The position numbers and the translations under genes are program-made. Positions 32,798 through 38,315 of a stretch of DNA of 64,000 bases are shown here, in pieces. The first letter of the stretch is position 1. Each line of letters starts with the position of its first letter. This DNA is from Deltaproteobacteria bacterium (GTDB taxonomy: Bacteria > Myxococcota_A > Polyangia > JAAYKL01), in NCBI GenBank assembly GCA_030595125.1, contig JAUVDV010000001.1, positions 1 through 64,000 on the forward strand, given 5' to 3'. Below the pieces are notes generated by a model. That model ran no database searches. It was not told the origin of the DNA and saw only the letters and a program-made list of their open reading frames with translations.

Positions 32798-32839
32798 TTG
32801 ATAACAATCTTGACAGTTGTTATCAACAGGTTATTCACA
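32798..32839. promoter_or_regulatory. Inverted repeat and DnaA-box-like sites upstream of queC
   Basis: A perfect inverted repeat TTGATAACAA (32798-32807) / TTGTTATCAA (32817-32826) surrounds TTGACA (32810-32815), a possible -35 element. Overlapping the right arm is TTATCAACA (32820-32828, one mismatch to the DnaA box) and next to it TTATTCACA (32831-32839), a perfect TTATNCACA match. This could be an operator over the queC promoter, DnaA-binding sites, or both. Confidence 0.55.
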
Positions 32840-32864
32840 GGATCATTGCAGGTTGCAGGCAAGT

Positions 32865-33590
32865 ATGTCTTTGCCAATGAAAAGAATGGAAAAACCTCTG
32901 GCTGTTGTTCTGTTTTCCGGCGGGATGGACTCATCGGTGGTGCTGGCCATGGCCGCAGACGAGGGCTTCGAGATCCACGCGATCACCATATCATACGGAC
33001 AGCGCCATCGGGTGGAGCTGGACAGTGCGCGAAAGTCGGCACAGGCTATTGGAGTGAAGCGCCATGTCTTCATTGACCTCGATTCCACGCCCTTTGCGGG
33101 ATCGGCACTCACCTGCGAGGATGTGAAGGTGCCCAGAGGACCGCGACCTCCGGGCGCCGATCCCATTCCGCCAACGTACGTCCCGGCGCGAAACACGGTT
33201 TTTCTCTCCCTTGCTCTCGCCTACGCGGAGTCGTCGGGCGCCAGGGACATATTCATCGGGGTCTCATCGGTTGATTACTCCGGGTATCCCGATTGTCGGC
33301 CCGAGTTCCTCACGTCTTTCGAGGAGACGGCGAATCTCGGGACACGATCGGCGGACGGGGGAAAAAGGTTTCGTATTTTGGCCCCGCTGATCGGGATGAC
33401 CAAGGGCGAAACCGTGACGGCAGGTATCCGGCTGGGAGTGGATTTCGGTCTGACCCACTCCTGTTACGATCCCGGTCCCGCCGGGGAACCGTGCGAACAG
33501 TGCGAGGCATGCCAGCTTCGGAGACGCGGTTTCGAGGAGGCTGGCATTGAGGATCCGATCGCCTGCAAGGAAAAGGCGGCGTTGCTATGA
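32865..33590 (+). CDS. queC: 7-cyano-7-deazaguanine synthase
   Basis: 241 residues from the ATG at 32865; ATG at 32886 (MEKPLAVVLFSGG) is an equally good start. ATP-dependent conversion of CDG to preQ0 in queuosine synthesis. P-loop VLFSGGMDSS, YGQRHRVEL, YVPARNTVFLSLALAYAE and the zinc-binding tail HSCYDPGPAGEPCEQCEACQLRRRGF (CxnCxxCxxC) are all present. Overlaps queE by four bases (ATGA). Confidence 0.95.
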   Translation: MSLPMKRMEKPLAVVLFSGGMDSSVVLAMAADEGFEIHAITISYGQRHRVELDSARKSAQAIGVKRHVFIDLDSTPFAGSALTCEDVKVPRGPRPPGADPIPPTYVPARNTVFLSLALAYAESSGARDIFIGVSSVDYSGYPDCRPEFLTSFEETANLGTRSADGGKRFRILAPLIGMTKGETVTAGIRLGVDFGLTHSCYDPGPAGEPCEQCEACQLRRRGFEEAGIEDPIACKEKAALL

Positions 33591-34231
33591 ACTTGCAGGT
33601 TTACGCCATTTTCAGTTCCATCCAGGGTGAATCTACCAGGTCCGGGCTGCCCACCACCTTCATCCGATTGGCGGGCTGTCCTCTCCATTGCTCGTACTGC
33701 GACACGCGGCTGGCATGCGAGGCAACAGGTGATTCGATGACCGTCGACGATGTGGTCGCGAAGGTGACCGAGCACGGTCGTCGTCTGGTGGAGGTGACCG
33801 GCGGCGAGCCGCTGGCCCAAAAATCAGCCCTGTCGCTGATGACAGCCCTTGCCGATAAGGGTTTCGACGTAATGCTCGAAACTTCGGGCGCGTTTTCAAT
33901 CGCCGATGTGGATCCCCGCGTCAGGGTGATCATGGACGTGAAGACACCGGGGTCAGCGATGCGTGATCGGATGGACATGAGCAACCTTGACCTCCTGGAC
34001 GGCAACCGGCACGAGTTGAAGTTCGTGATAACCTCCAGGGACGATTTCGATTGGGCGGCAGTGCTGATCCGGACTAGAAAACTGGCCGGAACGTGCGAGC
34101 TGCTATTTTCGCCGGCGTCCGGTCATCTCAAGGGAGAAGAGCTGGCGCAGTGGATTCTCGACGCAAACCTCCCGGTTCGTTTGCAGCTTCAAGTCCACAA
34201 GATCCTGTGGCCCGGGGAAGAAAACAAATGA
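33587..34231 (+). CDS. queE: 7-carboxy-7-deazaguanine synthase (radical SAM)
   Basis: 214 residues. Makes CDG from 6-carboxytetrahydropterin for queC. The cluster motif CPLHCSYC (CX3CX2C, about 30-37) with RLAGCPLHC and CDTRLACE before and after, VTGGEPL, and the MDVKTPGS segment identify QueE. Its upstream neighbour queC and downstream DUF488 gene overlap by four bases each, so the three are co-translated. QueD is not seen in the window; folE (16.7 kb) supplies the pterin precursor. Confidence 0.94.
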   Translation: MNLQVYAIFSSIQGESTRSGLPTTFIRLAGCPLHCSYCDTRLACEATGDSMTVDDVVAKVTEHGRRLVEVTGGEPLAQKSALSLMTALADKGFDVMLETSGAFSIADVDPRVRVIMDVKTPGSAMRDRMDMSNLDLLDGNRHELKFVITSRDDFDWAAVLIRTRKLAGTCELLFSPASGHLKGEELAQWILDANLPVRLQLQVHKILWPGEENK

Positions 34232-35308: not shown

Positions 35309-36637
35309 CTATGCTCCCGAGCACTGCACGTCCTTGAACATCAGGGAGGGAGACCGGTTGGAGGAATGCATCCACGGATCGTTGCCTACCTCGGCAAGGT
35401 TCCCCCAGAACTTGAGGTGGTTGCCCGCCATGTTCATCTCGGACACCGGATGGACGATCTTGCCGTTCTCTACAAGGTGCCCCTTGATGCCCAGGGAGAA
35501 ATCACCCGTCGTCGAGTTGGAGTTTCCACCCAGAAAACTTGTGATGTAGATGCCCCGAGTCATCCCCTTGATCATCTCTTTTACGCTCTGATTGCCCGGC
35601 TGCCAGATCAAGTTGGACTTGGAAGATGTGGTGGGATCCACGCCGAGTTTGGAGGCGTAATAGGTGTCGAGGAAAAAGGTCTTGAGGACGCCCTTGTCGA
35701 AGATCGGCCGTCTGGTAGTGGACATGCCCTCGCCGTCCCACGCCGTGGAGGCGAGGCCCCGTTTGAGGTGTGGATCGCTATTGATAGTGAGCAGCTTCGA
35801 GCCGACCTCCTTGTCGATTTTGTCCTCGAGGAAGGAGCGCTTCTGCTGGATGGAGCTTCCCGACAGGGGTGACAGAAGGTGTCGCACAAAGGTTGGCACC
35901 ACCCGGTTCTCCATGATCACCTGGTACACGTCGGTCTTCACCTGTTTCGATCCGAGTTGATCCATGGCCCTCTTGAGGGCGCCTTCGCCGAGACTTTTTA
36001 TCTTTGGCAGATCGGCAAGGAATCTGGTCGATCCGTAGTCTACGCCCGAGGGCTTGCGATCTTTGGTGTCTCTGACGGAAGCCTCCACCCCCCGCGAGAA
36101 GGATGTGCCGGCCTCGGTGGCCTCGAAGCCGTTGGTGGCAAAGCCCACGGTTGTGCTCGAAGTGTCGCTCACCCAGGAAGTGGCCGAGACAATTTTTTTC
36201 GCTGTGTCACCCGCACGGACCGCCTCCTCGAGCTGACTTGCCTGCGCCAGGCGCTCTTCGGGTTTGATGTTTGACACCATTGGATCGCTGCGTTCCAGAT
36301 CATCTTTGGTCATCCCCTTGTAGCGGGATGGATCGGGCAGCTTGCGATGTTCGTCGACCGCCAGGTACTTGGTGGTAGCGACAGCGGTCTTCACGTAATC
36401 GTTTATGGCCTCGGTGCGAAGGTCGGACGTGGAGTTGCTGGAGTACCGTCCCTCCACATACAGATCGATGGACAGGCCCTGGCTTGTCGACTCGCGAATC
36501 CTGTCGAGTTTTCCGTCGCGCCACTCCAGGGTGACGTTCCGGGAACGGGACAGGAAGACACGCGCGTCCCTGGCGCCTGCTTTTTGGGCTATAAGGGCTG
36601 TGTTGCGAGCCAGCTCCATGAGATTCTTGTCAGCCAT
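35309..36637 (-). CDS. pmbA: PmbA-like TldD-partner protein
   Basis: 442 residues from the ATG at 36637, which follows AGGAGGTG (the longer frame to 36646 lacks it). Partner of TldD in a heterodimeric metalloprotease that matures peptides. Typical elements: SRSRNVTLEWRDGKLDRIRES, GVEASV, and C-terminal NSNSTTGDFSLGIKGHLVENGKIVHPVSEMNMAGN. It has no signal peptide, although its partner is Tat-exported. The reading frame overlaps the end of tldD by eight bases, so both are made from one transcript. Confidence 0.9.
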   Translation of the reverse strand: MADKNLMELARNTALIAQKAGARDARVFLSRSRNVTLEWRDGKLDRIRESTSQGLSIDLYVEGRYSSNSTSDLRTEAINDYVKTAVATTKYLAVDEHRKLPDPSRYKGMTKDDLERSDPMVSNIKPEERLAQASQLEEAVRAGDTAKKIVSATSWVSDTSSTTVGFATNGFEATEAGTSFSRGVEASVRDTKDRKPSGVDYGSTRFLADLPKIKSLGEGALKRAMDQLGSKQVKTDVYQVIMENRVVPTFVRHLLSPLSGSSIQQKRSFLEDKIDKEVGSKLLTINSDPHLKRGLASTAWDGEGMSTTRRPIFDKGVLKTFFLDTYYASKLGVDPTTSSKSNLIWQPGNQSVKEMIKGMTRGIYITSFLGGNSNSTTGDFSLGIKGHLVENGKIVHPVSEMNMAGNHLKFWGNLAEVGNDPWMHSSNRSPSLMFKDVQCSGA

Positions 36638-38204
36638 CGTTAACACCTCCTACGGAAATGCCGCCGCACTTCACGGTCGGTAAACCCATACCCACCGGAA
36701 CGCGCTGGCCGTCCTTGCCGCACATGCCGGCACCAACGTTCAACTCCATGTCGTTGCCCACCATCTCCACTTTTTCGAGCACCTCGGGTCCGAAGCCGAT
36801 GAGATTGGCGTCCTTGACCGGGCGACCGAGCTTGCCGTTTTCGATGACGTACCCGTTCTTGAGGTAGAAGCTGAAATCGCCGGAGCCGATACGCACCTGG
36901 CCGTTGGTGAAGGTCTCTGCGTAGATGCCCTTCTTCACGGAGGCGATGATATCCGCCGGTTTGTGTTGGCCGTCGATCATGTAGGTGTTGCGCATCCTCG
37001 GGACGGGCGGATACCGAAAGCTCTCCCGGCGGCCGTTACCCGTGGGCTTGACGCCGTAGTGGGCGGCCGAGATCCGGTCGTGCATGTAGCTCTTCAGAAT
37101 TCCGTTTTCCACAAGCACCGTACGCTGCGACTCGTTGCCCTCATCGTCGATGTTGAGGGATCCGCGCTCGTTGGGATTGGTGCCATCATCGATTATTGTG
37201 ACGAAGTCGGGCGCGATGGATTTGCCGATCCGGTTTGCGTATACCGACTTTCCCTTTCGGTTGAAGTCCGCCTCCATGCCGTGTCCGATGGCCTCGTGCA
37301 GCAGGATTCCCGAAAGGCCCGGAGCGAGCACCACCGGGTACTCGCCGGCCCGGGGTTGCTCGGCGTCGAAGAGGGTGACGGTGCGCTTCGCGGCAACGTT
37401 GGCCAGCCTGTCCATCGTTTCGTCGTTGTAATACTCAAATCCCGCGCGCTTGCCGAAGCTGTAGTAATTCTCTTCGCGTCGTTCCCCGTCCTGCGCAACG
37501 CAGGTCAGGTACGCGATGGTCATGGGCTGAGTGTCCTCCGAGATCTTCCCGTCGCTGTTGGCTACCATGATACGACTGGTGGAATCACCGGTGAAGACGC
37601 GCACCTTGATGATGCGCTTGTCGTAGGCCATGGCTGTCTTGTTGGCGCGCTCCAGCATCGGCATCTTTTGCTCGATGCCCACGTCGGTCCAGGGGATCTC
37701 GACGGTGTAGTATTGTGGAACGTCCACCCGACGGATGGCCTTGAGAAGCGGCGCGGCCGGGCCGTCGGCGATAACGGCGGCCGTCATGGCGGCAGAGGTC
37801 AGGGCCTCCACGCTCAGATCTTCTGTGAACGCGAACCCGGTTTGATCGCCCTTCAACACGCGAACACCGCAACCGAGCTTGATGTTGGAGTAGGCCTGGT
37901 TGACCTCACCGTCCTCGAGCCCCAGGTAGCTGGTAACCTTGTGCTGGAAAAAGAGATCGGCGTACTGGCCTCCCTTGCCCATTGCAGAGTTCAGCACCTT
38001 GCCGATGATCTGGTCGTCGACGCCGAAGCTTCGGAAGTACCCGCCGCTAGATGTGCCCGACAGATCCGCCGGACCCGTCGGTGGTGTCGCCGGTCCTCCA
38101 CAGCCGATGAGGAAGCTCGGGGCCATGGCGATGGTAGCGCCGGCTGCCGATGTGGCAAGGAACCTGCGCCGTGACCAGCCGTCATTGTTTATTCTGTTTA
38201 TCAT
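36630..38204 (-). CDS. tldD: TldD-type metalloprotease carrying a Tat lipoprotein signal
   Basis: 524 residues from the ATG at 38204 (GGAGGAG eight bases upstream). The N-terminus reads SRRRFLATSAAGATIAMAPS and then LIGC: a twin-arginine signal followed by a lipobox (Cys 35). The rest is a full TldD: zinc motif HEAIGHGMEAD (His 303, Glu 304, His 308), GYSGKS-like ANRIGKSIAPDFVTIIDDG, and the C-terminal GNGRRESFRYPPVPRMRNTYM block. TldD is normally cytoplasmic, so an exported lipoprotein form is unusual. Its partner PmbA lacks any signal and could be carried along by Tat as a folded complex. Confidence 0.9.
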   Translation of the reverse strand: MINRINNDGWSRRRFLATSAAGATIAMAPSFLIGCGGPATPPTGPADLSGTSSGGYFRSFGVDDQIIGKVLNSAMGKGGQYADLFFQHKVTSYLGLEDGEVNQAYSNIKLGCGVRVLKGDQTGFAFTEDLSVEALTSAAMTAAVIADGPAAPLLKAIRRVDVPQYYTVEIPWTDVGIEQKMPMLERANKTAMAYDKRIIKVRVFTGDSTSRIMVANSDGKISEDTQPMTIAYLTCVAQDGERREENYYSFGKRAGFEYYNDETMDRLANVAAKRTVTLFDAEQPRAGEYPVVLAPGLSGILLHEAIGHGMEADFNRKGKSVYANRIGKSIAPDFVTIIDDGTNPNERGSLNIDDEGNESQRTVLVENGILKSYMHDRISAAHYGVKPTGNGRRESFRYPPVPRMRNTYMIDGQHKPADIIASVKKGIYAETFTNGQVRIGSGDFSFYLKNGYVIENGKLGRPVKDANLIGFGPEVLEKVEMVGNDMELNVGAGMCGKDGQRVPVGMGLPTVKCGGISVGGVNDG

Positions 38205-38315
38205 GGACATCTCCTCCTTAGAGTCGCCGAAACGATCAAAGCAAAACATGTATTCCCTTATTTCTTACACGGCGAAGGGGAAGTTTACCACCCATCCAGA
38301 GCAGAGTTGCCCGGG

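Follow-up and report, generated by a model that had tools for sequence, protein, structure and literature searches.

The TldD/PmbA pair is usually regarded as a cytoplasmic protease that matures peptides. In Escherichia coli, where PmbA is called TldE, activity requires both subunits, the metal is held by TldD only, with Cys454 among its ligands, His-tagged TldD pulls down untagged TldE, and the two form a hollow, spherical heterodimer of about 65 Å in diameter which admits unfolded N-termini, as described in PMC5810440. The same source reports that the enzyme processes the microcin B17 precursor before the toxin is exported, and the E. coli enzyme hence acts inside the cell. The twin-arginine translocation (Tat) pathway carries folded substrates of 20-70 Å, and hitchhiking of a partner through it is established, according to PMC4273604, for HybO/HybC and PaoABC. 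Here we describe a TldD/PmbA pair encoded at 35309..38204, minus strand, in a stretch of 64,000 nucleotides (nt), hereafter the window, from a Deltaproteobacteria bacterium (assembly GCA_030595125.1, contig JAUVDV010000001.1). TldD carries a predicted Tat signal and PmbA does not. This is plausibly best explained, with a probability of about 0.73, by an exported TldD/PmbA metalloprotease that uses Tat hitchhiker transport.

N-termini and metal site of the window pair

TldD, the catalytic subunit (524 residues; 36630..38204, minus strand, as are all features of the pair), opens with the sequence MINRINNDGWSRRRFLATSAAGATIAMAPSFLIGC, which reads as a Tat signal with a lipobox. The signal peptide would span residues 1-34 (38103..38204), is conserved in two genomes of the same genus (G001 and G002), and is made of an n-region, the twin-arginine motif SRRRFL at residues 11-16 (38157..38174), and a hydrophobic stretch; it thus matches the pattern of Tat substrates, RR-x-hydrophobic ahead of a hydrophobic stretch. 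The lipobox LIGC occupies residues 32-35 (38100..38111), and C35 would be the cysteine to be lipidated. A Gly/Pro/Thr-rich linker, residues 35-60 (38025..38102), runs from the putative lipid anchor to the first domain, the match to E. coli TldD beginning at residue 61. The start of TldD is secure, because a ribosome-binding site, AAGGAGG (38213..38219), lies 8 nt upstream of the ATG at 38204, and, in the stretch compared, G001 and G002 have no start codon ahead of the same methionine (the M of MINR/MIHR). PmbA, the non-catalytic subunit (442 residues; 35309..36637), begins with MADKNLMELARNTALIAQKAGA, that is, directly at its domain, as its relatives do, and bears no export signal. Both structural claims of the original prediction, a TldD with SRRRFL and a lipobox and a PmbA with no signal, are thus borne out.

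How often such a signal arises by chance was assessed by using the Tat rule adopted throughout (RR-x-[FLIVMYW] within 40 residues of the start codon, then a hydrophobic stretch). Out of 20,000 shufflings of residues 2-61, 589 passed the rule, and 93 had both Tat motif and lipobox; out of 314 neighbouring open reading frames (ORFs), not all of which are real genes, 16 and 2 did so, respectively. Given the pass rate of shuffled sequences, the motif alone is suggestive, and its conservation is the deciding argument. The curated profiles PF10518 and TIGR01409, which are detectors of Tat signals rather than defining features, were run on ten full-length TldDs. Among the nine relatives of the window protein, L191, L130 and L170 pass TIGR01409, and L130 passes PF10518 as well.

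PF01523, PF19290 and PF19289, the three PmbA_TldD Pfam domains, score above their curated cut-offs in both proteins. The best solved relative of the window TldD is E. coli TldD (5nj5_A; residues 61-521, E 3e-108); that of the window PmbA is 1vpb_A (E 1.7e-101), E. coli TldE coming second (E 1.5e-50). Neither protein reaches the NCBIfam equivalog cut-off (TldD 408.8 against 513 for NF008006, metalloprotease TldD; PmbA 204.4 against 438 for NF008268, PmbA), and both are therefore superfamily members, not orthologues of the E. coli type. The metal site is intact. The motif HEAIGH (residues 303-308; 37281..37298) has H303, E304 and H308 invariant in 34 TldDs of subfamily A, our label for pairs with a PmbA that reaches 280 bits or more when scored against that of the window. 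C495 (36720..36722), in aligned CGKDGQ/CGKEGQ contexts, is the counterpart of E. coli Cys454, which is the third ligand of the metal, and is likewise invariant in the 34; among these residues I306 alone varies. The window PmbA sequence lacks HExxxH. The stop of TldD and the start of PmbA overlap by 8 nt (36630..36637), the PmbA ATG lying within the end of TldD, and translational coupling is likely.

In the host genome (5.39 Mb, 95.3% complete) PF01523 is matched by the window TldD and PmbA only. A second, signal-bearing PmbA, one of the two findings that would have told against the original prediction, is thus missing from it. The genes that export would need are in place. They include TatC and two TatA/B/E matches (TatA, and a TatB-like gene adjoining TatC), and five separate above-cut-off matches to Lgt, the prolipoprotein diacylglyceryl transferase, on contigs C119, C156, C179, C143 and C129. 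A lipobox with its cysteine, in a genome that encodes Lgt, marks the window TldD as a candidate lipoprotein.

The host TatC (L202:429-1769, minus strand, contig C15) shows by eye an insert, kept in frame and very roughly 170 residues long, in loop P2, between the third and fourth transmembrane segments, and TatC was matched in two pieces in 13/13 genomes of the family searched. Such an insert is already known in kind: P2 of Myxococcus xanthus TatC is 183 residues long, according to PMC3712464, and Tat complexes with large periplasmic-loop inserts, M. xanthus included, have been imaged by cryo-electron microscopy, as reported in PMC13323110.

Distribution of the signal among relatives

Relatives were gathered from 59 genomes of the same class, 55 of which hold members of the family and were examined at the matched places. 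The best 80 of at least 574 confirmed PmbA relatives were added as further loci, a choice which makes the sample lean towards subfamily A. Removal of L113, L114, L115, L117 and L141, duplicates of class genomes, left 106 subfamily-A pairs. The TldD has a complete 5' end in 102 of them, and the four truncated ones were left out. By the final rule, used for the main counts, 89 of the 102 TldDs carry a Tat signal, as against 1/24 in the ordinary pairs of the same class; among PmbAs the figures are 0/106 and 0/26. Comparison of N-termini across relatives thus sides with the original prediction. Two earlier versions of the rule were also applied. A first version, run with the five duplicate loci included, flagged 93/108 TldDs with a 5' end and 2/112 PmbAs, both PmbA matches lying before the evident ATG in a frame that overlaps TldD. 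A stricter version, which required a long uncharged run, flagged 73/102 TldDs and 0/106 PmbAs. Inspection by eye shows that the final rule overlooks L156 (SRRHAL), which the trees count as Tat, and lets in L169, a weak case; in L123 the twin arginine reads GR. In none of the 106 PmbAs was a Tat motif or a hydrophobic N-terminus found.

The motif is RR-x-F in 77 of the 89 passing TldDs, and in 69 the residue ahead of RR is S, T or N. A lipobox is present in 40, and the other 49 have none by the rule. Judging from record titles, Tat-bearing members occur in Myxococcota, Acidobacteriota, Aminicenantes, Zixiibacteriota, Eisenbacteria, Cloacimonadota, Marinimicrobia, KSB1, Calditrichota, Ignavibacteriota, Bacteroidota and Planctomycetota, though many members are metagenome-assembled genomes (MAGs), and phylum labels may therefore err. 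The arrangement of the window pair marks a large TldD/PmbA subfamily, and is not a local oddity, a breadth that the original prediction had not seen. Subfamily-A PmbA resembles the Bacteroides thetaiotaomicron structure 1VPB, and an order of Bacteroidia was sampled as well. Out of 198 genomes 44 were matched, of which the 30 strong matches were examined and the 14 weak ones left out. The rule is passed by 18/31 TldDs and 0/31 PmbAs, and TatC is present in 30/30 of the pair-bearing genomes examined.

The same one-sided pattern, a tagged TldD next to an untagged PmbA, recurs in two further groups. Group C, which is nearer to ordinary TldD, has a Tat motif with an apparent lipobox, PRRxFL...SC (PRRKFL...SC in Bacteroidia), and a signal-less PmbA mate; it comprises L035, L197, L245, L246, L248, L261, L264 and L269, and accounts for 6 of the 18 Tat-bearing TldDs of the Bacteroidia order. 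Group B is a divergent TldD-like group with HE[ST]xGH, in which 10/16 members have a Tat signal by the rule. L043, L070 and L111 have signal-less PmbA-like mates next door; for several Tat-bearing members no PmbA-like mate was recognized in the stretch examined. The median number of cysteines in the TldD-like core of group B is 3 with a Tat signal (n=8) and 9 without (n=6).

Trees were built with FastTree, chosen for its speed; the TldD tree covers 128 rows, and the comparison of TldD with PmbA trees 126 rows, incomplete rows and group B being left out of both. A fully supported branch parts 104 subfamily-A rows (two with no subfamily-A mate in the table) from 24 ordinary rows. Tat predominates in subfamily A, and over the whole tree the Tat label switches at least 8 times. 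Because of the way the label is spread over the tree, losses from a Tat-bearing ancestor would be the simplest reading within subfamily A, though counts alone fit gain or loss. Anaeromyxobacter and a relative (L148, L171 and L153) form a signal-less cluster, and TatC is present in their genomes.

TldD and PmbA appear to be inherited as locked pairs. Of the 50 TldD splits supported at 95 or above, 47 are found in the PmbA tree, and over 102 subfamily-A pairs the TldD and PmbA distances have a correlation of 0.81. Such agreement may in part be expected from shared descent alone, and genomes with two subfamily-A pairs are more informative. G022, G038 and G009 each host one Tat-bearing and one signal-less pair, with a separate PmbA for each TldD, and in the PmbA tree the PmbA of the signal-less pair L063 and that of the Tat pair L089 each group with PmbAs from like pairs. 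In 21 of the 55 class genomes all TldDs are Tat-tagged, and PmbA is still present and signal-less (in this tally the group B loci L037 and L043, with RREA, were assigned to Tat by hand). The median gap between the two genes is 9 nt over the 106 pairs, 38 of which overlap. An exception is G068, in which a Tat-bearing TldD (L195) and a signal-less PmbA (L196) are unlinked, about 300 kb apart. A TldD-PmbA fusion with a Tat signal, which would be near-proof of joint export, was not found among the ORFs examined.

Proposed hitchhiker export and its alternatives

From these sequences we infer a route in which dependence on Tat, joint export of PmbA, location at the membrane and substrate are all putative. 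TldD and PmbA, made from overlapping genes, would assemble, metal-bound, in the cytoplasm. With its twin-arginine signal TldD would then bring the heterodimer, folded and about 100 kDa in mass, to the Tat translocase; the signal-less PmbA would be carried along. Signal peptidase II would then cleave before C35, which would be lipidated, and the Gly/Pro-rich linker would tether the hollow peptidase to the membrane, on the envelope side. There the anchored enzyme may trim or degrade unfolded peptides that enter N-terminus first. In both samples the signal sits on one partner alone, as hitchhiking implies. Export of TldD via Tat, as a prediction, is well supported. PmbA quite probably travels with it, judging from the dedicated pairing: since the one-tag arrangement recurs across many phyla, the untagged PmbA probably leaves bound to the tagged TldD. 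The original prediction, a Tat-exported TldD with a hitchhiking PmbA, is accordingly supported, though co-export of PmbA and an envelope substrate keep the status of inferences.

Cysteine content and isoelectric point were compared as markers of compartment, cysteine depletion being expected in an oxidising one. The median is 1 Cys in the PmbA partners of Tat-bearing TldDs and 4 in ordinary PmbAs (p about 1e-7, kinship ignored).

Several observations weigh against export. First, the window TldD reaches the cut-off of neither PF10518 nor TIGR01409. Signal-less TldDs exist, 13/102 complete ones in subfamily A by the rule, and 13/31 in the Bacteroidia order (all among the 25 of A type, one with masked bases), so the pair can evidently work with no export. 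TatC was not found in 6/108 sampled genomes (2/58 + 4/50), and one of those with no TatC match, G068, is a chromosome-level MAG with a clear Tat signal on its TldD. The cysteine difference shrinks within subfamily A, the median being 1 for PmbAs of Tat pairs and 2.5 for those of signal-less pairs (p 0.25, n 12). Finally, clustering of 541 ORFs around the pair and at the loci of relatives revealed no conserved neighbour gene, substrate or gene for a ribosomally synthesised and post-translationally modified peptide; beyond TldD/PmbA and overlapping antisense frames, no family occurs in more than 4 loci. The original prediction had named homologues lacking the signal as refuting evidence. They do exist, yet in the tree of the first sample they are scattered within a mostly Tat-bearing clade, and in some genomes the signal-less pair is an additional one that accompanies a Tat pair, so that the reading is not refuted by them.

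The alternative that survives best, though we regard it as improbable, is that TldD is exported alone, as a homodimer or with another partner, and PmbA stays in the cytoplasm with a different role. An active TldD homodimer has been reported in Sulfolobus, as cited in PMC5810440, where homodimers of both TldD and TldE are also described from ultracentrifugation, and the group B TldDs with no recognized mate would fit such a scheme. However, the same source describes E. coli TldD alone as inactive and its homodimer as unstable, and three group B relatives do have signal-less PmbA-like neighbours. Moreover, a dedicated PmbA stays adjacent to subfamily-A TldD, and the two trees match; this holds even for genomes with no other TldD. 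A TldD exported separately would be expected to lack both partner and activity, so the heterodimer most likely assembles inside and leaves whole.

Less probable still, and in our view quite unlikely, is that the N-terminal segment plays no part in export and the pair remains cytoplasmic or is tethered at the inner face of the membrane. The signal does change while the pair persists, and G068 combines a Tat-like TldD with a TatC that was not found. Yet RR is kept across distant phyla while adjacent residues vary, three relatives clear the TIGR01409 cut-off, TatC accompanies the pair in all of the Bacteroidia genomes examined, and a lipobox would hardly be useful at the inner face. Export of PmbA on its own by an unrecognized route, for which no supporting point was found, is very unlikely, given the N-termini of the 106 subfamily-A PmbAs and the lack of a Tat motif in the 31 of Bacteroidia.

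A natural experiment based on genomes devoid of TatC was considered and dropped. In a sample of the class Bacteroidia, 9/246 genomes have no TatC match, and TldD/PmbA is present in 0/9; among those with a clear TatC match it is present in 1/35 sampled, and G218, with a weak match, has no TldD. Since the pair is nearly as rare with TatC as without, its absence from TatC-less genomes says nothing.

Past PmbA, on the opposite strand (32817-34231, plus), the window carries two overlapping genes which, by eye, resemble the queuosine genes queC and queE. The same overlapping gene pair is kept in the same-genus locus L113.

Comparison with known systems

The window pair is a real, conserved variant of a known protease family, apparently undescribed. 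Judging from titles and the openings of abstracts, no description of an exported TldD was found in the open-access literature searched (subscription journals are largely uncovered by it, and automatic annotation may already flag the Tat domain in some members). We lean towards a broader view, in which a widespread undescribed envelope peptidase, a hollow TldD/PmbA cage that is built in the cytoplasm and leaves intact through Tat hitchhiking, would be the main form in an old subfamily spread over about a dozen phylum-level groups. If so, the envelope would be home to a compartmentalised N-terminal peptidase, and hitchhiker export, beyond the redox enzymes, would take in a large further class. 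Should the form that is commonest in Myxococcota and several other phyla indeed be exported, its substrates would have to be looked for among peptides that are secreted or reside in the envelope, and annotation should not carry over the function of the E. coli enzyme. Named myxobacteria, for example culturable Archangium (L124, L126), which carries the pair, would also offer a simple two-gene system to study Tat proofreading and transport of heterodimers devoid of redox cofactors.

Like E. coli TldD/TldE (PDB 5NJ5 series), the window proteins have three Pfam domains each and are homologous to their counterparts over nearly the full length, with HExxxH and a distant Cys in TldD and no HExxxH in PmbA. 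The window TldD differs in having about 35 extra residues, the predicted Tat lipoprotein signal, plus the linker. The closest solved relative of the window PmbA is the PmbA-type protein 1VPB of B. thetaiotaomicron; crystallised proteins of the TldE type, 1VPB included, are described in PMC5810440 as homodimers with no activity. Beside a Tat-signal TldD, G136 encodes a PmbA that is closely homologous to 1VPB (841 bits over 440 residues). With Tat lipoproteins the window TldD shares twin arginine, hydrophobic stretch and lipobox, but the lipobox is missing by the rule from 49/89 Tat-bearing TldDs of its subfamily. The nearest parallels to the proposed export are E. coli hydrogenase-2, HybO/HybC, and PaoABC, each a folded complex with a Tat signal on one subunit, according to PMC4273604. 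These are redox enzymes with complex cofactors, whereas in TldD/PmbA a single metal ion would serve a compartmentalised peptidase.

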